The translations under genes and the position numbers were made by a program. Shown here piece by piece: positions 8,331 to 28,575 of a DNA stretch of 29,782 nucleotides. The notes beneath the pieces are model-generated. The model saw only the letters and a list, made by a program, of their open reading frames with translations. It made no database searches and was not told the origin of the DNA. Positions within the stretch are counted from its first letter, which is position 1. Every line of letters begins with the position of its first letter. The DNA is from a virus, in the IMG/VR virus record IMGVR_UViG_3300024262_000172, positions 1-29,782 of that record; one strand, 5' to 3'.

Positions 8331-9391
8331 TATTCGCCCTCTCTAATACGGTGGTAACGTGCCTCTTGAGGTACTCCGTCACGAGTAAGGCAACGATATT
8401 TGAATGTAACTCTTGTGCCACGAGGGAAATGAATAGCTTCAATCCAATCTGGACAAAGTGTTTCAGGATTTTCACAAGCCCACTGATAACAAGTATTCAA
8501 ATTGTGTAAAACACCAGTGCCTTGAAGCTTTCTTTCTTCATCTGTAAAACCGGAAAGTTCTAGTTGTTTTCCATTATCCAAATGAAGGATCATGGCACCC
8601 ATCATACCTAACAATTTTGACCCTTTGTCAGTTTCACGACCAGTAATATAACCAATTACGGTTCCTTCCATATCTTTCAAAGGCTTATGTTTCAAAGCAT
8701 TATCATTACGAGTTGGATACCAAGGCATATTGTTACGCACAACAACACCTTCTCCACCTTTTTCAACCACTAAGTTTAAGAAATGATCGAAAGAAGTGTT
8801 TTGCAAACTAAACTGTGGAACAACTTTAATACTAGGCCCCCAATAACCCGCATTAACAAAAATTTCCAAAACCTTATTAAAGGGTAATGGTCTTAGAAAA
8901 TCTTGATTAGCACCATGATCCACTGCCCACTCAAAGCACCCAAAAAGCTTCTTTTTATAATTAGTGTTCTTGACTTCTCTGTTCTGAAGCCAATGAGCGT
9001 AGCAAGGAATATCAAAAACATTATGCGTAACACCTTTCCACTCATGATCAATAGGTTCAAGTTTCTTTATAATACTGCTTAAATCTTGTCTTTGACCTTC
9101 TTGATAAAGTTCTCCACAAAGGGGCATCTTAGGTAAAGTATCCAAGAACCAAGCTGGAGCATGTATAACATTTGCATAACTCGACCAAAGTCCCGTAGCA
9201 TGTTGAACTTTTTTAAACCGAGCATCTTTAGAAGTATTAGCCCAAGGAACTTCTGACTTTAACAAGCCCCTTGAGATACCGCCATCCCAAAGACAAAAAT
9301 GCCCATCTAACTTCTCAGATAACCATCTTCCACTTAAATCATGCTTCTTAGCATCATAATCTTTAAATTTTTGACTAAACTCAAATGCCAT
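8330..9391 (-). CDS. ATP-dependent DNA ligase
   Basis: A 353-residue phage-size ligase. The adenylated lysine is K27 in EKLDG (motif I KxDG, with His where Arg is usual). GEL at 93-95 gives motif III, FD near 126 motif IIIa, EGVVVR at 214-219 motif IV and KHKP at 234-237 motif V. The rest, including a TRDGVPQEARYHRIR end, fits the OB-fold domain. It seals nicks during phage replication and repair. The ATG follows GGGAGG and overlaps the sigma-like gene stop (TAATG). It sits among replication genes as expected. Confidence 0.92.
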   Translation of the reverse strand: MAFEFSQKFKDYDAKKHDLSGRWLSEKLDGHFCLWDGGISRGLLKSEVPWANTSKDARFKKVQHATGLWSSYANVIHAPAWFLDTLPKMPLCGELYQEGQRQDLSSIIKKLEPIDHEWKGVTHNVFDIPCYAHWLQNREVKNTNYKKKLFGCFEWAVDHGANQDFLRPLPFNKVLEIFVNAGYWGPSIKVVPQFSLQNTSFDHFLNLVVEKGGEGVVVRNNMPWYPTRNDNALKHKPLKDMEGTVIGYITGRETDKGSKLLGMMGAMILHLDNGKQLELSGFTDEERKLQGTGVLHNLNTCYQWACENPETLCPDWIEAIHFPRGTRVTFKYRCLTRDGVPQEARYHRIREGE

Positions 9392-9936
9392 TACAGTAAT
9401 TCCTCCCGCTTAAATGCTGCTTTTTCCTTAATCTTCTTAAGATAATAACCTAATAATCTAACACTCATATTTAATTCTTTTGCTATCTCCTTATTCCTGA
9501 TTCCTTTTGAAGTCATTCTTAATATTTGTCTTTCAGTTTCAGTACATCCAAGTATTCTAATAATATCTTCAACTGTTAAGTCTGATTGCTCCTCTTTTTC
9601 CGGTTCTTTGAAATCATCTTTCAAAGGTTCTGTTTGAGGATAAGGTATACCTTTCTCTCTTAAATTTGATAATGTCCTTTTCTTAATGATAACTGTATTT
9701 TCTAATAAAACTGCTGCTTCACATGTTCTCCAAATTGTTCTAGCAGCTAACTTTTTAAATTCTGCCTCATCTCTACTATAATAATGCTTCCATGCTCTAA
9801 CTAAGCCAACACTTGCTGCGCTTTCGACATCATCCTTAAGATGTCGATGCGTTGGATGCTTCATCAAGAATAAATTAGCAAGATTCTTAGCATACTTGTA
9901 AAATCTTTCTATTTCATGCTTCTGCATTATCGTCAC
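9391..9936 (-). CDS. Sigma-70-like transcription factor
   Basis: About 181 residues. The first half has a region-2-like stretch (DDVESAASVGLVRAWKHY, then EFKKLAARTIWRTCEAAV). The C-terminal half has a region-4 / LuxR-type helix-turn-helix (TETERQILRMTSKGIRNKEI, then NMSVRLLGYYLKKI). This layout matches phage or extracytoplasmic-type sigma factors. Three starts are possible (TTG, GTG, ATG); I chose GTG because it lies seven bases after AAGGAGG. It may direct host RNA polymerase to phage promoters; a candidate target is the conserved element described under findings (inference). It could also be a non-sigma DNA-binding regulator. Confidence 0.7.
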   Translation of the reverse strand: MTIMQKHEIERFYKYAKNLANLFLMKHPTHRHLKDDVESAASVGLVRAWKHYYSRDEAEFKKLAARTIWRTCEAAVLLENTVIIKKRTLSNLREKGIPYPQTEPLKDDFKEPEKEEQSDLTVEDIIRILGCTETERQILRMTSKGIRNKEIAKELNMSVRLLGYYLKKIKEKAAFKREELL

Positions 9937-10183
9937 CAACTAACCTCCTTCCTATTTCTGAAAACAAACAACCTGTACAAACATCTACCTTAAATATTTT
10001 TGCTAAAAGTATTCCAACTACTAATCTACTGTGATAAGTTTGCCAAACTGTTTTAATAGGTTCTAAATTTTTTGCTATAAGTTTATATAACCCTCCTCTA
10101 TCTTGCATTCTAATTTGAACACCAAAACTTTCAAGTACTGCATCACAAATTAATTCTAGTTTTGATTTTTTAAACATAATCAT
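9914..10183 (-). CDS. Small unknown protein
   Basis: An 89-residue basic N-terminus (MIMFKKSKLELICDAVLESF) leads into hydrophobic stretches (RLVVGILLAKIFKVDVCTG) that are too short and charged for a clear membrane segment. The ATG overlaps the upstream stop as ATGA, and the end overlaps the sigma-like gene by 23 bases, so expression of the two is linked. Not recognised. Confidence 0.65.
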   Translation of the reverse strand: MIMFKKSKLELICDAVLESFGVQIRMQDRGGLYKLIAKNLEPIKTVWQTYHSRLVVGILLAKIFKVDVCTGCLFSEIGRRLVGDDNAEA

Positions 10184-13519: not shown

Positions 13520-15897
13520 TTTTCTGACCAACTTTCCATATTCTCATGCCAATCTATACCAATCAATGGCACTAAAGCCCTCATCTTTTCTACAAAGTTT
13601 TTAACAATTTCCACAATCTGTTTTACAACCTCTTTTTTACAGGGTGTTTCAAGTTCATCATGAATGTTTAAAAGCTGAACTAACCAATCATGTATACCAG
13701 ATGGTTGAATATTCCAAATCTCAACCTGTAAAGCCTTTAATATTTGTGCACCGAAAGACTGAATTTCATGATTTGCCGCAGCCCGCATTGCAGCAGCTTG
13801 AATCGCAAATGCTGCTGCAAATACTGCTGATCTTAATGCCCCACCAACAAATTGCTCTCTATCTCTTCTTTTAATTTTAATCTCAATCCCCATCCACTCT
13901 TCGGGTGGGTCTTCGGCAAGATCAAACAATGCTTTACAAATTTTATTCTCAAGTGTAAAGTACCTTTTAAATCCCAATTTTGACTCTGCATACTCACAAG
14001 GATCTGCCCAAGTTACAATAGTTCCTATCCCACCATCCTGCCTCATCGAACAAAACTTATCAAATATTTTCTTGCGCTCTTGGCCCCAAACTATAAAATC
14101 TCTATTCCAAATCTTTAAAGCATTTTCAGCAGCAGTCTTTGATATTGCAACCCTTACCACAAGTGTATTAGCGTCACCACCATACAAAAGTGCAAAGACG
14201 CCTTGTTTAGCCCTTGAGTATAAATCTTGCTCTCCTGGAAGTTTCTTAGTGGCAAGTATTTGCTCATAAGTATGTCCAGGAAATAAATAAGTTCCAAATA
14301 AAGCATGGATACTTGTTTTAACCCACCCTCTACCCTTGCATTTTTCACAGTTTAAGTCTAAAGCTCCACAAACATGGCAAATTCTTTTAGAGGTTAATAT
14401 CTCTCTAAGTTTAGGGTCACCATAAACTGCATCTGCTAGGCCAACCTCAAAGGCGTCAAAGTCACCACCATTAAGCACCATATCCTCTAAAGCTAAAGTA
14501 AAACAAGACCTAATTTCTTTAGCTCTTTGAATACCTTGTGGATTAAGGTCATCATCTCCTGACATTCTAGTAGACTTGGCTCCAATAATTTTAAATGAAG
14601 CATGAAATCTACCGGCAGAAAGCAATTTATTGAACAAGTTAATATCTTTACCAGCATGACGTATGTCTAAAACTATTTTTGCTCTTTTGGCAGCGGGATG
14701 AAACTCATCAGTCTCTATAAAGCCAATTTCACTACATTTTTCACAGCCAACACCACCGCATACGTGGCAAATCTCTGTTAATCTCCAATTTGAAATTGGC
14801 TCAAGAAGTTTGCCATCAGTTGTCAGTTTTTCATCCTTAACAAGAGCAAGTTGCTCCTGATCATCCATCACTTCACAAAGCCATTCTAAAACTTTCTTTG
14901 GTGAATTAGCTTGAATAGGTGCATTTTCAATTTCTTTTAATTTAGCAGACTTTAAAGCTTGCAATTTCTCAATGTCTACCGCAAAACCTCTCCACCTATT
15001 AACAGCTACCATACAAGCTAAAACCGAATCAACATCATTCATTTCAGGTTCGCCAAAGTACTTATAAAGAAGTCGAGTGTACTTAACATCATCACTTGCA
15101 TACTGTCTATTGAGTTCATTATACCCAAAGAAGGTGATCCAAGTTTGTACTTTTTCTGGCCAAGCACCTTTCCAATCATCAGGAGTTCCAACAGCATAAG
15201 CAAATGGAGCATAGCCAATCTCTTTTGGCTTAGCTTTAACAGGTATCTCAAAATGTCTTATAATAGAACCTTTGTCAATATCTAAACAATCATGTGCTAA
15301 AGCTTTAAGAGCAGTAGAAGGTGCAAATTTTAACACTAGATTTTTAACATCTGGTCTTATAAAACCTAGCTCATCTTTAACATCTTCTATTTGCCACCTT
15401 TTACCCTTTCTTTTTTCAAAATAAATTTCTTTGAGCTTGATTCTTTTCTCTAACTCTATGATGAGAGGTTCTGCTAAAACTGTTGGAACCTTTTTAACTC
15501 TTATATCATCCCTATCCATTAAGCTTTGATATTCAGTTTTTCTAGCATGCAACATTAAATCACAGCATTTAAATGGCTTTAGCACTAATTTACAATCACG
15601 ACCAGTAAATTCATAAGCTGCCATTTCATCTATATGGTCTATTGGATAAGCATCTGGATCATGAAATTGAATTAATATAGTGTAAAGCTTGTATAGATGG
15701 AATACATCAAAGGCTAAATTGAACCCGACAATACCATCTTTATTGTTGATAATTTTTTCAAGTAAAATAATTGTCTCTGAAACTGGAGAAGTCCAAACAT
15801 TGTGAATGACAATTTCACCATCACCTTCAGCATACTGAATTGTGACTATGACTCCATAATAACCAACTGTCTCAGTATCAAAAAATATTGGAGGCAT
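13516..15897 (-). CDS. Family A DNA polymerase with 3'-5' exonuclease
   Basis: A 793-residue replicative polymerase. The exonuclease domain has FDTETVG (D7, E9), GFNLAFD (N60, D64) and YASDD (Y266, D270). The polymerase domain has the template/primer segment RMSGDDDLNPQGIQ (444-457), motif A GGDFDAFEVGLA (D479, E484), motif B K564-x7-YG and motif C IHDE (H746-D747-E748). All catalytic residues are present. Two cysteine clusters are unusual: C377/C380/C385/C388 just before the polymerase core and C507/C510/C517/C520 between motifs A and B, both with DnaJ-like CxxC spacing. It copies phage DNA together with the primase-helicase across the divergent region. It follows two ParB-domain genes in the same operon. 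Confidence 0.95.
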   Translation of the reverse strand: MPPIFFDTETVGYYGVIVTIQYAEGDGEIVIHNVWTSPVSETIILLEKIINNKDGIVGFNLAFDVFHLYKLYTILIQFHDPDAYPIDHIDEMAAYEFTGRDCKLVLKPFKCCDLMLHARKTEYQSLMDRDDIRVKKVPTVLAEPLIIELEKRIKLKEIYFEKRKGKRWQIEDVKDELGFIRPDVKNLVLKFAPSTALKALAHDCLDIDKGSIIRHFEIPVKAKPKEIGYAPFAYAVGTPDDWKGAWPEKVQTWITFFGYNELNRQYASDDVKYTRLLYKYFGEPEMNDVDSVLACMVAVNRWRGFAVDIEKLQALKSAKLKEIENAPIQANSPKKVLEWLCEVMDDQEQLALVKDEKLTTDGKLLEPISNWRLTEICHVCGGVGCEKCSEIGFIETDEFHPAAKRAKIVLDIRHAGKDINLFNKLLSAGRFHASFKIIGAKSTRMSGDDDLNPQGIQRAKEIRSCFTLALEDMVLNGGDFDAFEVGLADAVYGDPKLREILTSKRICHVCGALDLNCEKCKGRGWVKTSIHALFGTYLFPGHTYEQILATKKLPGEQDLYSRAKQGVFALLYGGDANTLVVRVAISKTAAENALKIWNRDFIVWGQERKKIFDKFCSMRQDGGIGTIVTWADPCEYAESKLGFKRYFTLENKICKALFDLAEDPPEEWMGIEIKIKRRDREQFVGGALRSAVFAAAFAIQAAAMRAAANHEIQSFGAQILKALQVEIWNIQPSGIHDWLVQLLNIHDELETPCKKEVVKQIVEIVKNFVEKMRALVPLIGIDWHENMESWSEK

Positions 15898-16814
15898 CAG
15901 CTACTTTTCCTTGACTCTTCTACTTTAGCTTCTTCTTCAGTTATCCCTCTTTCATCTACAACAGGTGGTACATACCAAATCTTATCATTGACTTCAGCAT
16001 AAAACGCACAGTCTTTATAAAACTCCTCACTTGATATATTAGCAGTACACCAAGCTAAAATCCTACTGTGCAAACCAGGGCCAATTGTCTCCATAATGTG
16101 ATCAAGCATCTTACACATTTCACCTTGAGTTCTTTTAACTTTTTGTGTGATGTTTTTCTCACGATGCCTTTCAAGTATTCTCGGTCTCTTTTTACCTTTT
16201 GCTTTAGCATCTTTAACTTCTCTTACATACCGATAAACATCATCTTTATCACCTTTGCGCTGAATAGACCAAAGATCAACCACATCAGTTTGACTTAAAA
16301 CTCCTAATGCAGCTTCCTGTTGTACATCTTCTGGAAGATCAAGCAGATAAAATCTTACTCGAAGATATCCCCAGGACTTTCCAAGTGTTTTTTCAAGTAT
16401 CTCTCTACTTATACCAGCGTTCTTAATTTTCTCAAGAGCTTTAGCTTCTTGAAGGATGTTTAAATCTTGTCTATTAAGATTCTCAGAAAGGTTCATCATT
16501 CTTGCTTCAGCAATAGTCATAGTGTCTTGAACAATAGACTTGATAGTTTCCATTTGATTAACTTTAAAAACTGCAGTATATCTACGATAACCAGCAACTA
16601 ATAAGTATTCTGCTGTACAAGTTGAATCCACTTTCAAGGCATTTTTAATGTTACCTGATAAAGGGATGACGACAACTGGTTGGATAAGATCGTGCTCTTG
16701 AATATCCTTAGCTAACTCTACAACTTCTAAAGGTGTAATCCAACCCCTACTATTAAAGTTGTTATCAGCTAAAATCTGTTCTTTCCTTAAGTGCAGAATA
16801 ACATCACCAGACAT
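15897..16814 (-). CDS. ParB-like DNA-binding protein
   Basis: A 305-residue ParB/Spo0J-type protein. The N-terminal domain has AGYRRYTAV (residues 74-82, the GxRRxxA box) and SENLNRQDLNILQEAKAL (from 110), the ENxxRxDL motif of ParB. A helix-turn-helix-like stretch (GISREILEKTLGKSWGYLRV) follows, and the C-terminal part is basic then acidic. In phages such proteins act as partition proteins, regulators or replication cofactors; which applies here is not known. The ATG follows AAGGAG. It overlaps both neighbours, including the polymerase, by one to eleven bases. Confidence 0.82.
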   Translation of the reverse strand: MSGDVILHLRKEQILADNNFNSRGWITPLEVVELAKDIQEHDLIQPVVVIPLSGNIKNALKVDSTCTAEYLLVAGYRRYTAVFKVNQMETIKSIVQDTMTIAEARMMNLSENLNRQDLNILQEAKALEKIKNAGISREILEKTLGKSWGYLRVRFYLLDLPEDVQQEAALGVLSQTDVVDLWSIQRKGDKDDVYRYVREVKDAKAKGKKRPRILERHREKNITQKVKRTQGEMCKMLDHIMETIGPGLHSRILAWCTANISSEEFYKDCAFYAEVNDKIWYVPPVVDERGITEEEAKVEESRKSS

Positions 16815-17190: not shown

Positions 17191-17234
17191 GCCACTATAA
17201 TATATAACGACACTTCTTTTAACTTCGGAAAATT
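17191..17234 (-). promoter_or_regulatory. Conserved promoter-like element, copy 3
   Basis: On the minus strand TTTTCCGAAGT is followed after 14 bases (ending CG) by TTATATATTATAG, in the same arrangement as the two copies near 23655-23697 and 23834-23877. It ends about 27 bases before the ATG of the short ParB-domain gene and directly follows the helicase stop codon, so it probably starts an internal transcript for the ParB-domain and polymerase genes. Confidence 0.7.
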
Positions 17235-17237
17235 ATT

Positions 17238-20200
17238 TTACGTACTCCAATAATTTCTTTCTACCTTTTCGCCGTCTAATGCTTGTGATAACTCTCCCAT
17301 ACTCAAATTTTGCAGGTCTTTTTTCAATTGTAGGTTATCCAAAACCAATTGATCGCTTTCTAAACAAATTAAATCTACTATTAGAGCACCTCTATTAATA
17401 TCCATCCCAGGTCGATGAAAGCGATCTTCAGCTTGCATCCTCGCACCACCGTCAAAATCATTTGAATAAAACATTTCAATAGGCGAACCAGTTAAAGTAA
17501 GTGCCATACCTCCAGCCTTTGGTTGACCTATAAAACAAACCTTAGGATACTGAATTCGAAGCTCATCAAATTTAAAATGAGACTTATCCATAGCATCTAG
17601 TAAAATATCACTACTTATCACTGACCCGTCAGGATTTTTACCAACATAGCCGCGACCATCAACCTTTAAAGTTGCCCAACCAGCCTTTCTGATTAAATCG
17701 CCAAGTCTTTCAATTGTTCCAGTAAAACCACCCCAAACTATAAAACGCCCTACATCTTCATACTCATCAAGATAAGAAAGTAAGACATCATCTTTTGGTG
17801 ATTTTACCTCATTAGTTGTCCTCTCAAATTTAAGAACTTTGCCTTCTCCACCACATTTAGGGCATACATCTTCAGACTTTGTATATTTATATTTTGTAAC
17901 ATCAACTGGTTCCAATAAATTCGGTTCTTCACCTTGCCAAATTAAGGCTCTACCTTCACCTAAGCATTCCGGGCAGGTTACTTCACCGGATGGTGCTTTC
18001 CCATACTGAAAACCATCAGACAATTCTCGCAACAAATTCAAAGCTTGTACTGATCTTCTTGAATTTGCTACAATAGCTTTCGCAGCCCTTAACATACTTG
18101 GAGTAGGCTTAATATTAATAATTTTATACTGTTTCTCTGGTAAGTCTAAACAATCTTTTTTAAATTTAACTAATACCAAACCATTAAGCCTTCTATAAAG
18201 TCTTTGAACTTCATTAATTGATTTTATGTAAGGATGGTACTCTGGATTTTTAACCTTTATAACTCTTTTTTCTGGCTCTGGAACTTGTTTGCCCTCTCTA
18301 ATAGCCTTCACAATTAATTCAACATCTTGGAGAGGAACATCTTCCTCCCTTTCAAAATATTCAATATGATTCTCATGCTCCTCAAGTTCACCGCAGATTT
18401 TACATTTTAATTCATTATCAAGCCAGCTAACTAAGGCTTTATATACACCACCGGTCATCGACTCTTTCTGCTCAGTTATACAAAGTCTATCTTTGAACTT
18501 AAAAATATTTCCCTCGCGTATAAATCCTGGCATTGCCACCTCACAATTATGAACCACTATACCATTAGCAGCAAACTTTTTTATTTTATTTACACTACAA
18601 TTATAAACTTTTTGTTTACCTTTATTAACAGTACCAGTAAACGTTACAAGATTATTTGAGGGCCAATTATGTTTATTTTTTATCCTTTCTTGCAGTAAAT
18701 TTTGTTTTCTATCACTTTGAAAACCTATTCTTTCATAAAAGTGAACAGCATCTTGACTAGTTATTAAAAGAACACTTGCGTCTTTACTATAAATTATTCT
18801 ACCTTCAATTTTAGATTGTTGTGCTTTTCGTGTATACCAACTTGATTTTATACCAAAATACAAAAGAATTCTTTGAACTGCTTTAATTCTATTTTTATCA
18901 GTTTGACTAAATCCAATCCTTAATTTATCCTTATTTACTGTACCATCAGTATCAAAAAGACCACTTAATAATCCTTTTAAAAACTCAGAAGATGTTTCAC
19001 TTTCAATATATCCATTTATTTGTTTATCAGTACTTAACCTATATTGATAAATTAAATTTTGTAAATGACTATGAAAAATATTAAATCTTTTTACTTTTTC
19101 TTCAAAACAGATATTTAAATCAGAAGGAAAATAGCCTATTACTTTCTGCAATAAACTAAAATCATCTTTCCAAAAAGATAATCTACCATACAGTCTATTA
19201 CCATTTTTATAAACATTACCATCACCAATTAATAAACCAACTAAGTAACCATCTTCAAAAGTTCCAACACCCTCTTTTATAAAACTACTCTCGATATTTA
19301 AGACTAATTTATAACCAGATTTTAGTTCTTGAACAGGTATAAATGTTCTAAAACCATCAAAGTCAACCTCTAAGGGATGATTACATGTGGCCTCAAAATT
19401 ATAACCTTCTTTAGTTTGAATTTCATAGACAACCTTCTCTCCAGTTTTTATGAAACCTTTTGATTTATAATTTCTACCATCCACACGAGCATAAAATGGT
19501 ATATTTACCAAATCTTGAATCTGTCTTGGGCCGGTTGAAGTAGTCACCCAAGTATCAGAAGTAAGGCATTGATGCCACCAGTCTTCAGGTGTGCGTGGAG
19601 CAGGTGTACCAGTCATTAAAACAACGTAACCATTTTCCTTATGCTCAGCGCGCACTGCATTAGCAACTGCCATTGCACACTGACTCCTTTTGGCTGTTGG
19701 ATTTTTGATTTTTGGGGACTCATCAAATATTAGAAATTTTGGAGCTGGCCAACCATCTTCCCAAGTATTAAGTACTTTAACTAATTTTTCATAAGTCAAC
19801 ATTTTCGGGTTAACAGTGCAATTCCACTTAAGTAACTCCCTTGCAACAGCAAATACACCAGACTTTGGCCCAATATACCAAACATCACCATCTTCAAGCA
19901 TTAAACTTTCGGCTGCCTCGAGTGCAGCTAAAGTCTTGCCTGTACCCATTTCACCAGCTATAATGCAATAATTCCTAGAAAGGATATGTTGTGCCATCTC
20001 AACTTGATGTGCAAACAAGTTATCTCTTTTTGGCTTAAACTCAATCAATGGCTTATCATAATTCTCGTAAGGATTCTTGCCCATTAAAAAATTTAGTTGA
20101 AACCAGTTTCTAAAGTTATCATGAATTGACCATATTTTTGAGTCTGGGTGCCACCTTGCACCAGACATCACTTTAATTTCGGCTATCAATTTCTTATTAT

Positions 20201-20297
20201 AATTAAATTTAAGGAAGAGTAAGCCCTTCTGCTTGCTCACAGTTACTGGATACCAATAACCACCAATCTTGATTTTTATTTCGCTAACAGTTGACAT
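17238..20297 (-). CDS. SNF2-type superfamily 2 helicase interrupted by an intein
   Basis: From the ATG after GGGGAG the precursor is 1019 residues. The host protein has AGEMGTGKT (114-122, Walker A), IFDESPKIKN (D192-E193, Walker B) and LMTGTPAP (motif III). After the intein come a CKIC-x-H-x-x-H type cluster, two CxxCxGxG zinc motifs (CPECLGEG near 775 and CPKCGGEG near 812), GGMALTLTGSP and QAEDRFHRPG (955-964, motif VI of SNF2-like enzymes). Without the intein it would be about 678 residues. Such phage proteins translocate on or remodel DNA in replication or recombination. The intein must splice to restore the protein because it separates motif III from the C-terminal helicase lobe. Confidence 0.92.
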   Translation of the reverse strand: MSTVSEIKIKIGGYWYPVTVSKQKGLLFLKFNYNKKLIAEIKVMSGARWHPDSKIWSIHDNFRNWFQLNFLMGKNPYENYDKPLIEFKPKRDNLFAHQVEMAQHILSRNYCIIAGEMGTGKTLAALEAAESLMLEDGDVWYIGPKSGVFAVARELLKWNCTVNPKMLTYEKLVKVLNTWEDGWPAPKFLIFDESPKIKNPTAKRSQCAMAVANAVRAEHKENGYVVLMTGTPAPRTPEDWWHQCLTSDTWVTTSTGPRQIQDLVNIPFYARVDGRNYKSKGFIKTGEKVVYEIQTKEGYNFEATCNHPLEVDFDGFRTFIPVQELKSGYKLVLNIESSFIKEGVGTFEDGYLVGLLIGDGNVYKNGNRLYGRLSFWKDDFSLLQKVIGYFPSDLNICFEEKVKRFNIFHSHLQNLIYQYRLSTDKQINGYIESETSSEFLKGLLSGLFDTDGTVNKDKLRIGFSQTDKNRIKAVQRILLYFGIKSSWYTRKAQQSKIEGRIIYSKDASVLLITSQDAVHFYERIGFQSDRKQNLLQERIKNKHNWPSNNLVTFTGTVNKGKQKVYNCSVNKIKKFAANGIVVHNCEVAMPGFIREGNIFKFKDRLCITEQKESMTGGVYKALVSWLDNELKCKICGELEEHENHIEYFEREEDVPLQDVELIVKAIREGKQVPEPEKRVIKVKNPEYHPYIKSINEVQRLYRRLNGLVLVKFKKDCLDLPEKQYKIINIKPTPSMLRAAKAIVANSRRSVQALNLLRELSDGFQYGKAPSGEVTCPECLGEGRALIWQGEEPNLLEPVDVTKYKYTKSEDVCPKCGGEGKVLKFERTTNEVKSPKDDVLLSYLDEYEDVGRFIVWGGFTGTIERLGDLIRKAGWATLKVDGRGYVGKNPDGSVISSDILLDAMDKSHFKFDELRIQYPKVCFIGQPKAGGMALTLTGSPIEMFYSNDFDGGARMQAEDRFHRPGMDINRGALIVDLICLESDQLVLDNLQLKKDLQNLSMGELSQALDGEKVERNYWST
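18546..19568 (-). other. Intein with LAGLIDADG homing endonuclease in the helicase
   Basis: A 341-residue insertion from C244 (CLTSDTW) to N584 (GIVVHN), followed by Cys of the C-extein (HN|C), which are the expected splice-junction residues. The block B T-x-x-H motif is ATCNHPLEV. Two endonuclease motifs are present: YLVGLLIGDG and LLSGLFDTDG, each with the acidic active-site residue. It sits just after helicase motif III. It is clearly related to the intein in the primase. Confidence 0.93.
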
Positions 20298-20308
20298 CAA
20301 ACTCCCCT

Positions 20309-20503: not shown

Positions 20504-20764
20504 TCACCCAAAATCATCAGAGGTTACTTCTTCAAACCACCAATTATATCTACTTTCTTTCGCTGCTAAAGACCTTGAAAGTGTTATGGCTCTTGTCTTA
20601 TTAGCTTGATTCATAAAGTCACAAAGTAAATTTAATAAAAACTTAACATTACGCCCACCAACGTGTGTATATACATCATGCTCAGTTAAAAGCTTAGTAC
20701 CATTAAGCCAAAGTTCATAGTCACCTGCTCTAAATGGGTTATCTGTGAGTTTAATTTTGTACAT
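20504..20764 (-). CDS. Small unknown protein, tandem paralogue 1
   Basis: An 86-residue protein with GGGAAG before MYKIKLTDN. It is clearly related to its upstream neighbour: both start MYKI, share an x-Y-x-(I/L)-W/Y-LNG strand turn, a DVY/DIY segment, LCD/LCN, then TLS-SL-AKESR and W-FE. A beta-hairpin start followed by helices is likely. No known family recognised; arose by local duplication. Confidence 0.7.
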   Translation of the reverse strand: MYKIKLTDNPFRAGDYELWLNGTKLLTEHDVYTHVGGRNVKFLLNLLCDFMNQANKTRAITLSRSLAAKESRYNWWFEEVTSDDFG

Positions 20765-22526: not shown

Positions 22527-23537
22527 CTACTTATTAGCTTTCGCGGCTTTTGCCATTTCTTCATGAGCTTTCTTGGCGAGCGCAGCAGCTTCTTCAGCTT
22601 CCTTCTGCTTCTTCTCCAACTTCGCTTCGGCGCGTTCAGCAGTCTTACGTGTCTTCGATTCAGCATTCTTCTGAACTCTGGCTTCAAAGTCAGCCTTCTG
22701 CTTGGCGATGCTTTCGTCATCCACATGCAGAAGCCACTTAATCGCAAGACCGAAACCTAGAACACCTTCCTGCTTCAAGCCAGCGGCTATACACAAACGC
22801 TTACCAATTTCACCTTTCTCCAACTCAGCTTTGACTTCGGCGGCCTTCTGCATGAAAGCAATAGGAGCAAACTTTTCAACTTCCGCTGCTTTGCCCTGTC
22901 TCTTATTTTCCTTAATCTCCTTAACACGAGCTGTAACAGCAGGGATGAATACGTCAGGCGTGGCTGTCATTGCGCGGTCAACCCAATTCTGCCTTTCTTC
23001 TTCAGGCAGCTTCGCAATTGCGTAAGCATTGCTCAACACAATTTTACCTTCGTTAATCAGCTTAACGATTTCGGGGTTAGAAATCTTGGTCAAAGACAGG
23101 CGATCATTAACCCACTGGTAAGATTTACCAATCTTGGTCGCCATCTCTTGCAGAGTCATAGCTGGATTAGCAGCGAAAATACGCCGAAGCTGCGCAGCAT
23201 ACTCAGCAGGTTTCGTTTCAATATGGTGGATATTAGCAAGCACCTGTGCTTCCAAAGTTTCCGCGTCATCAATATTCAAAACAAGAGCTGGAATCTCATC
23301 CAAGCCCAAGTCTTTCGCTGCATTCACACGATGCAAACCATCAATAATTTCATAAAACTTCGTCTGTGTTTCAGGATCATCCTTTACACGAACCGTAATC
23401 GTTGACAGCGTAAATCCTTTCTGTTTTATACTGTCAACCAAGCCCAAATACTCCTCCGATTGTTTGTTGACTGCGCGAAGCGCAACAGGATTGTCCCGAA
23501 TTTCCGCCACTTTGATACTTTTAGACTTTCCACTCAT
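22527..23537 (-). CDS. ParB-like protein, first gene of the leftward arm
   Basis: A 336-residue protein with an N-terminal ParB/Srx-like domain: EIIDGLHRVNAAKDLG (63-78), then VLANIHHIETKPAEYAAQLR, equivalent to the ENxxR region. It has a helix-turn-helix (MTLQEMATKIGKSYQWVNDR, 127-146) and a long Ala/Glu/Lys-rich coiled-coil end (MAKAAKANK). It is visibly more GC-rich than its neighbours. The ATG follows AGGAGG. It lies downstream of a conserved promoter-like element and three GTTACC-N4-GGTAAC palindromes in its leader, strongly suggesting autoregulation. It may be a partition protein or a master regulator of the divergent region; binding to these palindromes is inferred, not shown. Confidence 0.85.
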   Translation of the reverse strand: MSGKSKSIKVAEIRDNPVALRAVNKQSEEYLGLVDSIKQKGFTLSTITVRVKDDPETQTKFYEIIDGLHRVNAAKDLGLDEIPALVLNIDDAETLEAQVLANIHHIETKPAEYAAQLRRIFAANPAMTLQEMATKIGKSYQWVNDRLSLTKISNPEIVKLINEGKIVLSNAYAIAKLPEEERQNWVDRAMTATPDVFIPAVTARVKEIKENKRQGKAAEVEKFAPIAFMQKAAEVKAELEKGEIGKRLCIAAGLKQEGVLGFGLAIKWLLHVDDESIAKQKADFEARVQKNAESKTRKTAERAEAKLEKKQKEAEEAAALAKKAHEEMAKAAKANK

Positions 23538-23563
23538 TGCTAAAAACCTCCTAAAAACTTAGT

Positions 23564-23617
23564 GTTACCAAACGGTAACACTGTTACCAAACGGTAACAC
23601 TGTTACCAAACGGTAAC
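23564..23617. promoter_or_regulatory. Three palindromic operator-like sites, left array
   Basis: Three copies of GTTACCAAACGGTAAC start at 23564, 23583 and 23602, exactly 19 bases apart, in the leader of the ParB-like gene. Each has perfect six-base arms, and neighbouring copies share flanking bases. Equal spacing near two helical turns is typical of cooperative protein binding. Likely binding sites for the adjacent ParB-like protein (inference). Confidence 0.8.
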
Positions 23618-23654
23618 GCCAGCTTCCTCACTATGAGAAAATACCGGCGTGCTA

Positions 23655-23697
23655 ATGGATATAACGCTACTTATTTTAACTTCGGAAAAGAAAATTT
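23655..23697 (-). promoter_or_regulatory. Conserved promoter-like element, copy 1 (leftward)
   Basis: On the minus strand TTTTCCGAAGT, 14 bases ending CG, then TTATATCCATTAG. It points toward the ParB-like gene and stands in mirror orientation to the rightward copy. The palindromic sites lie just downstream of the expected transcription start, where a bound protein would block elongation. Confidence 0.7.
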
Positions 23698-23850
23698 CAA
23701 AAATTTATATTATTTGTAAACTATAGTTTACCAATTACTAGTATACCCCTCTTTATACCTTTGTATGAAGAAGAAGAAGAAGAAGAAGTAGTCAGTATAA
23801 AGAATATAATACCCCTATTCTAGTAATTAAATATTTTTCTTTTCCGAAGT
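23679..23850. repeat. Large imperfect inverted repeat centred on a (GAA)7 tract
   Basis: Paired arms, outside to inside: ACTTCGGAAAAGAAAA (23679-23694) with its exact complement at 23835-23850; AATTACTAG (23733) with CTAGTAATT (23820); CTTTATAC (23751) with GTATAAAG (23795). The centre holds (GAA)7 at 23767-23788. The region is AT-rich and non-coding, and the outer arms belong to the two outward promoter elements. It could be a divergent regulatory core, an origin or a partition site. Confidence 0.8.
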
Positions 23851-23877
23851 ACGTATTAGTAACGTTATATATTATAG
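23834..23877 (+). promoter_or_regulatory. Conserved promoter-like element, copy 2 (rightward)
   Basis: TTTTCCGAAGT, 14 bases ending CG, then TTATATATTATAG. It points to the structured RNA, tmRNA and primase. The 14-base gap and the final CG are the same in all three copies, and AGT occupies the same place within the gap. No other strong promoter is seen before the tmRNA. Confidence 0.7.
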
Positions 23878-23899
23878 CGGGCGGGACATTGCCGCTAAT

Positions 23900-23991
23900 A
23901 GCATTTAAAATGCTGTGACAATGTTTAAAATGTTACAACGGAAAAAGATAGCGTTGATAAATAGCGAGGCGTCAGGGCATTTTAAATGCCC
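23900..23991. promoter_or_regulatory. GCATTT-type dyads
   Basis: AGCATTTAAAATGCT (23900-23914) and GGGCATTTTAAATGCCC (23975-23991) are dyads around a single central base, with a weaker relative (ATGTTTAAAATGT) near 23921. The shared GCATTT arms suggest a second class of operator for another DNA-binding protein, located between the rightward promoter and the right palindrome array. Confidence 0.5.
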
Positions 23992-23995
23992 TACT

Positions 23996-24030
23996 GTTAC
24001 CATTCGGTAACACTGTTACCATATGGTAAC
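23996..24030. promoter_or_regulatory. Two palindromic operator-like sites, right array
   Basis: GTTACCATTCGGTAAC (23996) and GTTACCATATGGTAAC (24015) again start 19 bases apart. Arms are identical to the left array, while the central four bases differ. They are about 120 bases downstream of the rightward promoter-like element, mirroring the left side. Confidence 0.8.
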
Positions 24031-24034
24031 ACCG

Positions 24035-24047
24035 TGTCATAATGACA
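24035..24047. promoter_or_regulatory. TGTCATAATGACA dyad
   Basis: A perfect six-base-arm dyad around a central A lies four bases after the second right-hand palindrome. It may be a further operator or part of the same binding region. Nothing else distinguishes it. Confidence 0.4.
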
Positions 24048-24129
24048 TGGTATAGTTTTGGCAAAACCAATGAAAGCTTAGAAGGTATAAAGTCAATTTT
24101 ACTAATGTGGAATAAATTACAGCAAGGTT

Positions 24130-24140
24130 TGATCTTTAAT
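24130..24140 (+). promoter_or_regulatory. TTGATCTTTAA motif before the structured RNA
   Basis: Same eleven bases as at 24262-24272. The pair brackets the structured RNA, so each RNA gene has one copy in front of it. It could be an antitermination (boxA-like) or RNA-processing signal. Confidence 0.45.
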
Positions 24141-24143
24141 AGT

Positions 24144-24262
24144 AGATGCAGTCCTGGAAACAGGGGCGAGGAGCCAGACACCCTCTTTGAAAAGAGGGAT
24201 ACAGCGCAAGCGAGTACCACCAACCTCAACTAGGTGCTAGGCAAGGAGAGGTTACTGCATCT
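24144..24262 (+). ncRNA. Unidentified structured RNA just upstream of the tmRNA
   Basis: A nine-base closing stem AGATGCAGT / ACTGCATCT encloses several helices: CCTG-GAAA-CAGG (GNRA loop), CCCTCTT-TGAA-AAGAGGG, a small AGCGCAAGCG hairpin, and AACCTC / GAGGTT (24222-24227 with 24248-24253) which stacks directly on the closing stem and contains CTAG-GTG-CTAG. This multi-branched fold in a non-coding stretch, with no open frame, suggests a functional RNA. I could not match it to a riboswitch, ribozyme or phage RNA class I know. Confidence 0.6.
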
Positions 24263-24263
24263 T

Positions 24264-24275
24264 GATCTTTAACAA
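24264..24275 (+). promoter_or_regulatory. boxA-like motif directly before the tmRNA
   Basis: GATCTTTAACAA, which differs at two positions from the TGCTCTTTAACA-type boxA of ribosomal RNA leaders, and is followed by TT as in those leaders. It ends two bases before the tmRNA 5' end. It may recruit NusB/S10 or mark processing of the precursor (inference). Confidence 0.45.
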
Positions 24276-24277
24276 TT

Positions 24278-24641
24278 GGGGGCGAACTGATTTCGACGGC
24301 ATTTCGGAAGCTTGAGTTGCATGTCGTGGATGTCAATCAACCACGTTAAAAAGATTGGCAAACCTTTAAATGCCAAGAACACTGTTCTTGATGGCAACTT
24401 CGCCAAGCGCGAACTTGCCTCTGTTGCTTAACCAACAACGGACAAAGGTGCCCTAAAGATGCTTGTATTTAGGGAAGGTCAACAAGCTGACACTCTGAAA
24501 GAAGGGCGCATCCAGCCAGCGTATGACTGGTGCTTAATAGGTTTGTATCTACCTCGCCAAAGGAGCAAAAGGGTACTAAGCATGTAGAAGCTCAGGTTGA
24601 AGAATGTTCGGACGCGGGTTTGATTCCCGCCGCCTCCACCA
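24278..24641 (+). ncRNA. ssrA: tmRNA (transfer-messenger RNA)
   Basis: A complete one-piece tmRNA of 364 bases. The 5' end GGGGGCG pairs with CGCCTCC before the encoded CCA, with the G3-U pair that alanyl-tRNA synthetase needs. TGATTTCGACGG is the conserved 5' segment, and GCGGGTTTGATTCCCGC forms the T-arm. A short frame ending in TAA at 24429-24431 is the tag. The molecule rescues stalled ribosomes and tags the unfinished peptide with SmpB; no SmpB gene is seen here, so the host protein would be used. Phage-encoded tmRNAs are known but uncommon. It stands first in the rightward arm, before the primase. Confidence 0.95.
24372..24431 (+). CDS. tmRNA tag reading frame
   Basis: The likely resume codon GCC opens a tag of 19 residues, AKNTVLDGNFAKRELASVA, then TAA. 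The hydrophobic end SVA resembles protease-recognition ends such as LAA. The tag is longer than the usual 8-11 residues. A start a few codons earlier at GGC in the same frame cannot be excluded; the nearby GCA at another phase meets a stop after three codons. Confidence 0.7.
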   Translation, partial: AKNTVLDGNFAKRELASVA

Positions 24642-24813: not shown

Positions 24814-27800
24814 ATGGTCACAAAAACCGAAGCGATCCGTAATTTTTTGTCAGGCTCGACTCGTGAAGATTTAGCAGAACTTTATGATTATAATATGGAA
24901 GTTCAAATTAACGTAGCTCAAGATGGTGGTGAGCGCGTTGATGGCGACTTCAAAGGCAGGGCTTGGCACGGTTATACTGACCATTTAACTACTTGGAAAC
25001 CTATCAGAATACCTTGGAAAGCTGCTACCGACCCTTATTTCACAGATTCAAACATGACTTGGGACTTAGCTCAACATGCTGAAGCTATTGGGATGACTGG
25101 TTGGGATTGGGCTAATAAGTGTAGCCGGTGGATTGCCTTTGACTTTGATGCGATTGTTGGGCATTCTGAGAAAAACCCTTCCACACTTACGATCGAAGAA
25201 CTTGAAACAATAAAAGAGACAGCTTCGAGCATACCTTGGGTTACAATAAGAAAATCAACTTCTGGTCGTGGACTTCATATCTATGTTTTTGTGGATGAGG
25301 TTGAGACCAAAACTCATACAGAACATGCTGCCCTTGCTAGAGCTGTCTTAGGTAAGATGGCAGCTTTAACTGGTTATGACTTTAGATCAAAGGTTGACTG
25401 CTGTGGTGGGAATATGTGGGTTTGGCATCGTAAGATGAGTAGTACGGATGGCTTAATTTTAATAAAGTCTGGTACTGTACTTAAAGATATTCCACCGAAT
25501 TGGCGAGACCATATTGATGTTATTAATAATAGAAGAAAAAGAAATCTACCAAAGTCTATTGCTGATTTGCCTGAAGCTGACAAATTTGAGGATTTGATAA
25601 ATCAACGAGTAAAAATTCCACTTGACAGTGAACATAAAAGCTTAATAACTTACCTTGAAAACTCTGGTGCTCTTTGGTGGTGGGATAATGATCTTTGGTT
25701 ATTAGTAACCCACACCACCCATCTTAAAGATGCACATAGAGAACTTTCTCTTAAAGGAATTTTTGAGACAGTATCAACAGGTAAAGAGAAAGGTGCAGAC
25801 CATAACACCTACTTAGTCCCTTTGAGGCACGGTGCTTGGTCAGTTAGACGCTTCACTCCTGGCGTACAAGAGCATCTAAGTTGGACACAAGATGGACAAG
25901 GTTGGACGCGTTGCTACTTAAATAGAAAACCAGACCTATTAGCAGCTGCAAGTACTTTTGGTGGTATAGAAAGTCCACAAGGTGGCTTTGTATTTCGGGA
26001 AGCTGAGAATGCTATGAAAGCTGCTGAAGCAATGGGTCTTACTATAAACATTGGTACACCTATGCTTGGTCGGCAAACAATTTTGAAGAAGCATAAAGAT
26101 GGTAGATTAGTGGCTACAGTAGAACGTGATCCGATGGATAAGTCAGATGAAATGCAAAATTGGCTTGCGCTTAAGGACAAGCCTTGGACTAGAATATTTT
26201 CGCTACCTGATGATGGCCCAGATGAAGTAGATACTTATGACTGTGATGATGTTGTAAGACATATTATAACCACAGGTAATGAAAACTATGGTTGGGCAAT
26301 AAAGGCTGAAAACATGTGGAGGCTTGAACCGTTAGCGCATGTTCAAAAAGCTTTAGGTGCTTTGGGCTTTAAGTTTAAAGAGATAAATACAATTATTGGA
26401 AGTGCTGTCTTCAAAGCTTGGAGACTTGTCAATAAGCCATTTGAGCCAGAGTTTCCTGGTGATAGAGAATGGAATAGGGGTGCTGCTCAATTAAAATTTA
26501 ACCCAACGGTAGATACATCAAACCTTAATTATCCTTATTGGTTATCTGTGCTTGAACATTGTGGCTCAGGACTTGATCAGACAATTAAAAGAAATCCTTG
26601 GTGTAAGGTTAACAATATACTCAATGGCTGTGATTATCTTAAAATTTGGTTGGCATCATTATTTCAAAGACCTACTGAACCGCTTCCGTACTTATTTTTC
26701 TATGGGCCTCAAGACTCTGGCAAATCAATATTTTGGGAATCAATATCAGAACTTTTGACTGTAGGTGTTAAGAGAGCTGATGTTGCACTTCTAAGTCAAC
26801 AGGGCTTTAACAAAGAACTTGAAGGTGCAATACTTTGTGTTCTTGATGAAGTTGATTTAAGAAAAAATAAAGTTGCATATAATCGCATTAAGGACTGGAC
26901 AACTGGTAGAGAAATGGTTATACATGAAAAAGGTATGACACCTTACCATATACCAAATACTGCGCACTTCGTGCATTGTATAACAAAAGATCAATGGGTT
27001 TTAACGAACCAAGGCCCAAGACAAGTAGAAGATATTACTGATACAGAAACAGTAATTGTAACCGATAGTCAAGAGTACAAAACAAAAGGTTTCTTTAAGA
27101 CAGCAGAAAAACAAGTATTGAAAATAGAAACTTTTGATGGTTTTGAATTTAAATGCACAAATGACCATTTAGTTAAAGTTAATTATGATGGCATTGAACT
27201 TTGGCAAGAAGCTGGAAAATTAAAATCTGGTGATAAACTTTGTTTAAATAAGCACAGAAATATTAGTTGGGATGGTACTGGAACTTGGGAAGATGGTTAT
27301 ATTTTAGGTTGGTTATTTGGTGACGGTACAACTTTTATTCGTAAGTCTGGTAAATCAATTGGTAAGGTTGAAAATAGGTTATTAGTTTTTCCAGGTGATG
27401 AGTCAGTTTTAGAAACTTTAATTAATTGTTTTACTGTAAAACCGAATATTAATAGAAATAAACAAGCTAATCATCTTGTGTTAACTTCTAAACATTTGAA
27501 TCAACTTTGTAAAGATTTTGGTGTTGAAGGTAAGAAAGTAATAACAAAAACAATACAACAGGCTTCAAGTGAATTTTTGGTCGGATTTATTTCTGCTTTC
27601 TTTGATACTGATGGCACATGTGTATTCAGAAAAAGAGGTTGTTATATATCTATTACTCAATCAAATAAAGAAACTTTACAGATTTTGCAACGTTTACTTC
27701 TTTACTTTGGTATCAATTCACATATAAGACTTCAACGAAAAGGTGGTATTAGGCAAATTCTCGATAACAAACCATCTAAAGTAAAAGATGCATATGAATT

Positions 27801-28575
27801 AATTATAAGGAATAAAGAAAATCTTGAAATTTTTAGAAGTAGAATTGATCTTCAACACTACGAAAAACAAGAAAAATTAAAAGCAATAGTTAATTCTTGG
27901 ACACGAAAAGCTGTTGAAGACAAGTTTTTAACAAGAGTGGTTAAAATTGAGGAAGAAGGTGTGCAAGAAGTTTATGATATAACTGTTCCTGACGCCCACG
28001 CTTTCTCGTGTAATGGTTTAATGTTACATAATTGTGCCAATGATCACAACTTTTGTCCCGTCTTCCCAGGTGATACTAGGATCGTTGCCAGCTATGTCAA
28101 GAACTTAGATTTTGATAAGAAGATTCCAAGAAGAAAATTTCTCCCTTTGCTCATGAATGAGGCTCCAGACTTTCTAGCAGAACTTCTAAATCTTGATATA
28201 CCAGAATCTAATGATAGACTTAGTGTGCCGGTTGTAGAAACTGAGGATAAAATAGTTATTCAGAGAATGAATCAAACAGCTTTAGAAACTTTTATAGAAG
28301 AAAATTGTGTACCAGCTTCAGGATATATGATTAAATTTTCAGAATTTTATGATAAATTCAGGGAGGGTGTTGATCCTGCCGAAGCAGCAACCTGGACAAA
28401 GATTGCTATTGGGAAAGGAATTCCACCTCAATTTTTGAAAGCAAGAAGTTCAAAGGACTCACAGTATTATATTGGTAATATTGCTTGGCTTGGGACTAAA
28501 GTAGAAGATAGAAAACCATTTATCCTACTTCGGAGAGGGTCTAATGACTTTTTAGCGTTGCCGGAGGAACTTTGA
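24814..28575 (+). CDS. Primase-polymerase / SF3 helicase fusion interrupted by an intein
   Basis: A 1253-residue precursor; about 901 residues after splicing. The N-terminal part is an archaeo-eukaryotic type primase: WIAFDFDAIV (D110, D112) and STSGRGLHIYVFVD (with H155). The C-terminal part is an SF3/D5-like helicase: FYGPQDSGKS (630-638, Walker A), LCVLDEVD (Walker B), and NTAHFVHCANDHNF with DTRIV, the sensor region, restored after splicing. It makes primers and unwinds phage DNA, working with the polymerase and ligase. The ATG follows AGGAAGG. The intein splits the sensor motif, so splicing is needed for helicase function. Confidence 0.92.
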   Translation: MVTKTEAIRNFLSGSTREDLAELYDYNMEVQINVAQDGGERVDGDFKGRAWHGYTDHLTTWKPIRIPWKAATDPYFTDSNMTWDLAQHAEAIGMTGWDWANKCSRWIAFDFDAIVGHSEKNPSTLTIEELETIKETASSIPWVTIRKSTSGRGLHIYVFVDEVETKTHTEHAALARAVLGKMAALTGYDFRSKVDCCGGNMWVWHRKMSSTDGLILIKSGTVLKDIPPNWRDHIDVINNRRKRNLPKSIADLPEADKFEDLINQRVKIPLDSEHKSLITYLENSGALWWWDNDLWLLVTHTTHLKDAHRELSLKGIFETVSTGKEKGADHNTYLVPLRHGAWSVRRFTPGVQEHLSWTQDGQGWTRCYLNRKPDLLAAASTFGGIESPQGGFVFREAENAMKAAEAMGLTINIGTPMLGRQTILKKHKDGRLVATVERDPMDKSDEMQNWLALKDKPWTRIFSLPDDGPDEVDTYDCDDVVRHIITTGNENYGWAIKAENMWRLEPLAHVQKALGALGFKFKEINTIIGSAVFKAWRLVNKPFEPEFPGDREWNRGAAQLKFNPTVDTSNLNYPYWLSVLEHCGSGLDQTIKRNPWCKVNNILNGCDYLKIWLASLFQRPTEPLPYLFFYGPQDSGKSIFWESISELLTVGVKRADVALLSQQGFNKELEGAILCVLDEVDLRKNKVAYNRIKDWTTGREMVIHEKGMTPYHIPNTAHFVHCITKDQWVLTNQGPRQVEDITDTETVIVTDSQEYKTKGFFKTAEKQVLKIETFDGFEFKCTNDHLVKVNYDGIELWQEAGKLKSGDKLCLNKHRNISWDGTGTWEDGYILGWLFGDGTTFIRKSGKSIGKVENRLLVFPGDESVLETLINCFTVKPNINRNKQANHLVLTSKHLNQLCKDFGVEGKKVITKTIQQASSEFLVGFISAFFDTDGTCVFRKRGCYISITQSNKETLQILQRLLLYFGINSHIRLQRKGGIRQILDNKPSKVKDAYELIIRNKENLEIFRSRIDLQHYEKQEKLKAIVNSWTRKAVEDKFLTRVVKIEEEGVQEVYDITVPDAHAFSCNGLMLHNCANDHNFCPVFPGDTRIVASYVKNLDFDKKIPRRKFLPLLMNEAPDFLAELLNLDIPESNDRLSVPVVETEDKIVIQRMNQTALETFIEENCVPASGYMIKFSEFYDKFREGVDPAEAATWTKIAIGKGIPPQFLKARSSKDSQYYIGNIAWLGTKVEDRKPFILLRRGSNDFLALPEEL
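26977..28032 (+). other. Intein with LAGLIDADG homing endonuclease in the primase-helicase
   Basis: A 352-residue insertion from C722 (CITKDQW) to N1073 (GLMLHN), followed by Cys 1074. Block B is CTNDHLVKV with the T-x-x-H pattern, and the end VYDITVPDAHAFSCNG is block F. Endonuclease motifs are YILGWLFGDG and FISAFFDTDG. It shares sequence along its whole length with the helicase intein (GPRQ, TKGFF/SKGFI, LKSG, WEDGY/FEDGY), so the two are relatives in different host genes. Confidence 0.93.

Follow-up and report, generated by a model that had tools for sequence, protein, structure and literature searches.

Analysis of a 29.8-kb fragment of a tailed-phage contig, referred to in full as the window, revealed a control region, the hub (23538-24060), that appears to activate the phage's DNA-copying genes to its left and right simultaneously. 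We consider it likely that the hub is made of divergent twin promoters with shared operators, co-regulating the replication operons. Two promoter-like arms point outward from a short core, palindrome arrays lie outside the arms, the parB2 operon has a third arm copy ahead of it, and the layout is conserved among relatives. The hub lies exactly where the direction of the genes diverges: between about 5 and 23.5 kb the ORFs run mostly leftward, and past 24 kb they run rightward. The leftward set encodes ParB1, an intein-containing SNF2-like helicase, ParB2 (another member of the ParB family), DNA polymerase A, a sigma-like protein and a ligase. Rightward genes specify a tmRNA, an intein-containing DUF5906 primase and a D12 methyltransferase. 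LAGLIDADG domains were seen in both inteins. The hub belongs to a known kind of element, the divergent early control region, here in an uncharted phage group.

Re-inspection of the window located every part that an earlier note had named in this region (Table 1). The perfect 16-bp palindrome and the third arm copy are additions to that note. The two arms, each 51 nt long, are 75% complementary to each other. The third copy stands 10-20 bases ahead of gene 16804, itself overlapping the parB2 start. On the right of the core, the mirror partner of CTTTATAC reads GTATAAAG.

Table 1. Coordinates of the hub parts and of associated features in the window
Feature	Position	Strand	Remark
Sigma70-ECF-like protein	9391..9939	-	Candidate phage transcription factor; below NCBIfam cut-off
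ParB2, second ParB-family protein	15897..16814	-	
Third copy of promoter-like arm	17192..17232	-	Ahead of gene 16804 and parB2
SNF2-type helicase with intein	17238..20300	-	Leftward operon
ParB1, ParB_N and ParB HTH	22527..23537	-	First gene of leftward operon; Pfam, NCBIfam and PDB profile matches
Left outer array, three 18-bp palindromes TGTTACCAAACGGTAACR	23563..23618	.	19-bp period
Left arm, promoter-like element	23644..23694	-	Leftward (outward)
Perfect 16-bp palindrome GTAAACTATAGTTTAC	23716..23731	.	Single copy in window
AATTACTAG	23733..23741	.	Mirror at 23820-23828; weak, core within chance
CTTTATAC	23751..23758	.	Mirror at 23795-23802; weak
(GAA)7 simple repeat	23767..23787	+	In core
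AGTCAGT inner box	23790..23796	+	Outward-pointing; family element
CTAGTAATT	23820..23828	.	Mirror of AATTACTAG at 23733-23741
Right arm, promoter-like element	23835..23885	+	Rightward (outward)
GCATTTAAAATGC GCATTT dyad	23901..23913	.	Right side only
GCATTTTAAATGC GCATTT dyad	23977..23989	.	Right side only
Right outer array, two TGTTACCNNNNGGTAACA GTTACC palindromes	23995..24031	.	
Structured RNA	24143..24262	+	Between hub and tmRNA; without annotation; fold z -3.35
tmRNA, tag AKNTVLDGNFAKRELASVA	24278..24641	+	
Primase (DUF5906) with intein	24814..28575	+	Main target of presumed rightward promoter

The symmetry of the outer parts was far above chance. Comparison of the left half with the reversed right half gave a score of 51, which none of 2000 shuffles reached (maximum 46). 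The arms without the palindrome arrays scored 43, again unmatched in 2000 shuffles (maximum 34). The palindrome TGTTACCNNNNGGTAACA occurred five times in the hub and nowhere else in the window, even when three mismatches were allowed. Chance is thus a very poor account of the outward arms (51 nt each) and of the five GTTACCNNNNGGTAAC palindromes. The earlier description of the region as a near mirror image was confirmed, with some caveats. The inner pairs AATTACTAG and CTTTATAC are real, but the core between the arms that contains them was within chance when taken alone (equalled by 144 of 2000 shuffles), its parts were unevenly spaced from the arms (39 versus 7 nt), the gaps between array and arm were also unequal (27 versus 111 nt), and the GCATTT dyads were confined to one side.

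Approximately 90 relatives were recovered in total. The helicase C-extein as query yielded 20 related contigs. A primase alignment gave 264 matches, of which 80 loci were retained, and bacterial genome bins contributed another nine. As single-sequence queries, ParB1, ParB2 and the polymerase found no distant relatives, whereas the helicase C-extein did find some. Neither the N-terminal part of the primase nor the polymerase had a match among 50,697 named phage records, and a DNA similarity search against named phages returned a single match, to the 3' end of the tmRNA. This opens a phage group that, in the searched collection, includes no close member with a name. In a 97-kb relative, PHROGs assigned terminase, portal and tape-measure genes, so the group consists of tailed phages; a search with Terminase_6N was negative. 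A second contig of the same species (L007) is 99.6% identical to the window and runs 5.7 kb beyond its right end. Clustered substitutions and deleted bases distinguish the two at 20729-20764, near the end of L007.

The right flank of the hub differs from that of other group members in that the tmRNA is an insertion between hub and primase. The left GTTACC array occupies the place of the outer site of relatives, and the right array precedes the inserted structured RNA and tmRNA. Another relative, L016, also has a tmRNA, at a different place. The structured RNA is closed by GATGCAG/CTGCATC, with a minimum free energy of -47.1 kcal/mol, and a comparison with Rfam gave no match. A direct repeat, TTGATCTTTAA, stands ahead of the structured RNA (24129-24139, +) and ahead of the tmRNA (24262-24272, +). 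Its second copy reads TTGATCTTTAACAATT, which we take to be close to the E. coli rrn boxA. From their letters, the two repeats are possible antitermination signals.

The arrangement around the hub was preserved throughout the group. Primase and parB1 were divergent in all 73 loci that hold both genes. For each of these 73 loci, the parB1-primase region was scored for long-range inverted repeats against dinucleotide shuffles. The z score exceeded 4 in 61 of them, with a median of 12.3. For one relative (L040), the region delimited by the true gene start scored 14.6. After removal of near-duplicates, about 51 of 62 kept z>4 (counted from the score table). In some very long regions, such as those of L088 and L109, the best repeat lay away from the centre and may represent a different feature. 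A control set of 200 other intergenic regions was scored; nine high scorers at the primase proved to be target regions and were set aside, leaving 191. Among these, z exceeded 4 in about four and exceeded 8 in one. The symmetric layout is therefore kept at this gene boundary and nearly absent from other intergenic regions, which gives good support to the view of the earlier note that the region is one integrated switch and not ordinary intergenic DNA. Relatives that keep the gene order and lose the symmetry, which that note had set as evidence against its view, were mostly absent; about 10 of the 62 non-redundant relatives were without detectable symmetry. The expectation of the same order of parts in related phages was borne out for the layout, while the sequences themselves differed between phages. 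Because the layout recurs with different letters in dozens of relatives, it represents a conserved design and not chance. Such conservation in a large phage group, despite the turnover of letters, is unusual.

From the centre outward, the layout common to the group is an inner box, AGTCAGT, then the promoter-like arm, and then outer operator-like sites before each first gene. AGTCAGT was found 24 times pointing outward and three times inward, usually no more than 60 nt from the centre, and its density of 0.67 per kb was 6-fold that outside (0.107). Within the arms, all 11 occurrences of GTATAGT point outward. In the L014, L016 and L030 regions, a 28-bp palindrome of the type CGTAAGTCACCTAATTAGGTGACTTACG was observed on the core-facing side of the promoter-like arms. 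The left and right arms of one phage were more alike than any arm of another phage in 25 of 25 phages compared, a figure biased upward by the choice of phages with strong arms. In five moderately related pairs from one subgroup, the arms had changed together at 7-12 sites and singly at 1-3. This concerted change was not seen in the closest pair, L035/L037, nor in L101/L107.

The outer sites and the third arm copies underlie the promoter reading. Operator-like repeats accompany both promoter-like arms, as GTTACC palindromes in the window (three and two) and as GATTTGATT on both flanks in relatives. GATTTGATT was the outer site in 36 of 62 phages, with 95 copies, and was absent from the window's phage. 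Per kb, it occurred 4.33 times in the hub, against 0.16 in noncoding DNA elsewhere and 0.005 in coding sequence. Whole contigs of several relatives contained further ATCAAATC/GATTTGAT pairs, about 90-150 bp apart, that bracket sigma70-like promoters, with 4-16 ATCAAATC sites per contig. The bracketed promoters repeatedly precede sigma-factor genes, and also parB2 genes. In eight contigs (L118, L119, L121, L122, L123, L127, L131 and L132), GATTTGATT was seen to flank promoter-like sequences, several of them ahead of sigma-70-family genes. Third arm copies outside the hub read into a nearby ORF, namely the parB2 operon in the window and L073 and a sigma-70-family gene in L014. Those of L073 and L014 are again flanked by GATTTGATT, and GTTACC palindromes are missing from the third copy in the window. 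Since the outer-flank element recurs at other promoters in relatives, it looks like an operator. Judged by its letters and placement, the distribution of GATTTGATT suggests a phage-wide regulon with one putative binder. If the outer element acts as the operator of such a regulon, the hub would be two of its members placed back to back.

These features are consistent with the following arrangement. Two near-identical phage promoter modules would lie back to back around the short core, the left copy driving parB1, the helicase and probably the genes behind, and the right copy driving the tmRNA, the primase and the methyltransferase. The dyads downstream of each putative promoter and before its first gene, here the three and two GTTACC palindromes, would be operators. 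A sequence-specific phage protein on these palindromes might repress both promoters together, or block elongation from them, and the replication operons would thus be switched on and off in step. A first guess for the binder is ParB1 itself, in the manner of KorB; the outer site and the ParB1 recognition helix did not covary cleanly. When half-regions were scanned with a generic sigma70 model, outward scores did not exceed inward ones (7.18 versus 7.25), so we infer promoter activity, as we do repression and the binder. The arms in the window match sigma70 poorly, and the sigma-like protein of the window may be needed for the presumed hub promoters.

The hub could instead be first of all a bidirectional origin, in which the core melts, outward AGTCAGT boxes serve as sites for the initiator or for primer start, and replication is primed or activated by transcripts running outward. 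We regard this as a serious possibility, at somewhat less than even chance. The genes for primase and helicase lie on either side of the hub. Exact DnaA boxes, TTATCCACA, are present in three, two and three copies in the parB1-primase regions of L053, L056 and L059 and nowhere else in those loci. AGTCAGT, besides its enrichment, outward bias and position near the centre, is missing from the third promoter copies inspected. On the other hand, the DnaA boxes are limited to these three related phages of one subclade, and the region in the window has none. AT content was flat from the centre outward, at 0.61-0.67 (group average), with no central peak. The minimum of the cumulative GC skew tracked gene direction, and the skew flipped again near 4-5 kb where the genes flip. 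GC skew was therefore rejected as origin evidence, as it follows the coding strand. The earlier suggestion of an origin is thus still plausible, with indirect support from the DnaA clusters, the enriched inner box and the primase next door, and gains nothing from AT content or skew. A replication origin co-located in the core would be plausible, although this is weaker than the promoter reading.

A more ambitious combination is a mirror-built bidirectional origin and master switch of a new class. Its halves would be kept alike by joint evolution, its twin promoters would launch the helicase operon one way and the primase operon the other, and the ParB-family protein would be a regulator or loader rather than a partition protein. 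We consider this rather unlikely in its entirety.

ParB1 is a true member of the ParB/Spo0J/KorB superfamily. It matched Pfam ParB_N (PF02195, 5.7e-12) and HTH_ParB (PF17762, 7e-7), both above cut-off, as well as NCBIfam TIGR00180, also above cut-off. Its PDB profile matches included Spo0J (E 5.8e-22), ParB, Noc and KorB (E 4e-13), and its structure model also matched KorB and the ParB fold. The GTTACC arrays might accordingly be read as a parS-type centromere for ParB1, making the region the partition site that the earlier note had also offered. The five 18-bp palindromes have TGTT/AACA ends, adjoin a ParB-family gene and are unique in the window, and the ParB fold is seen by sequence and by model. 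However, box II of ParB1 has departed from the CTP-binding GERRxRA type, reading DGLHRF (DGLHRFxAA) in place of GERRxR, and only its first G and second R are invariant among 62 sequences. No ParA-family ATPase (PF13614) was found above cut-off in 14 large relatives, whose records may be incomplete, whereas 14 of 14 control genomes were positive. The same 14 relatives yielded no tyrosine integrase, and so give no sign of a stably inherited state. Furthermore, the commonest outer-flank element of relatives recurs at other promoters. The missing ParA and integrase make partition improbable, and the earlier proposal is unsupported. The group offers a direct test case for whether ParA-less ParB proteins of phages act as transcription regulators or replication factors and not in partition.

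It is very improbable that the inverted arms serve recombination or inversion, or form a structural hairpin, with the promoters incidental. As inverted repeats the arms are indeed long, reaching about 95 nt, and their likeness within each phage, in the 25 phages selected for it, would fit this reading. However, they are imperfect and usually 60-250 nt apart, and third arm copies stand singly ahead of genes. No flipped core was found in near-identical pairs or between the window and L007, and the inversion switch was rejected on this ground. That the symmetry is a chance product of AT-rich intergenic DNA can be dismissed for arms and arrays, given the shuffles and the conserved layout, and would suit the short inner pairs alone.

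We therefore retain divergent twin promoters with shared operators as the likely reading of the hub. Counting against it are the sigma70 scan and the poor sigma70 match of the window's arms, the lack of clean covariation with the ParB1 helix, the third arm copy without GTTACC palindromes, the two pairs without concerted change and the roughly 10 relatives without detectable symmetry. The group supplies about 60 naturally rewired versions of the hub, from which the factor, its site and the code of the promoters could be solved jointly.

Among known systems, the immunity region of lambda, with oL/pL and oR/pR, has outward early promoters with operator arrays that serve opposite operons, with replication genes in one of them. 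The hub resembles it in its two presumed outward promoters, operator-like arrays and opposite operons. Unlike lambda, the hub has no repressor gene between the presumed promoters, its arms are near-identical around a short core, and tyrosine integrase was not found in its large relatives. In mycobacteriophage L5, copies of a short asymmetric site are spread over the genome, at promoters and in short gaps between genes, with more than 20 operator/stoperator sites predicted (PMC9283540). The repeated short site recalls GATTTGATT in relatives. In contrast to L5, GATTTGATT forms inverted or direct pairs that bracket presumed promoters, only 4-16 ATCAAATC sites occur per contig, and the phage of the window does without GATTTGATT. 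KorB of RK2 is a ParB-family global repressor with palindromic operators near promoters (PMC11790492). The operator sequence differs from that of the hub, and repression, CTP binding and clamp sliding are features of KorB that would be hypothetical in ParB1. We know of no mirror twin-promoter layout for KorB. By analogy, KorB is nevertheless the best functional counterpart of ParB1, as both are ParB-fold proteins, the parB1 gene adjoins operator-like palindromes near presumed promoters, and KorB is itself among the PDB matches of ParB1.
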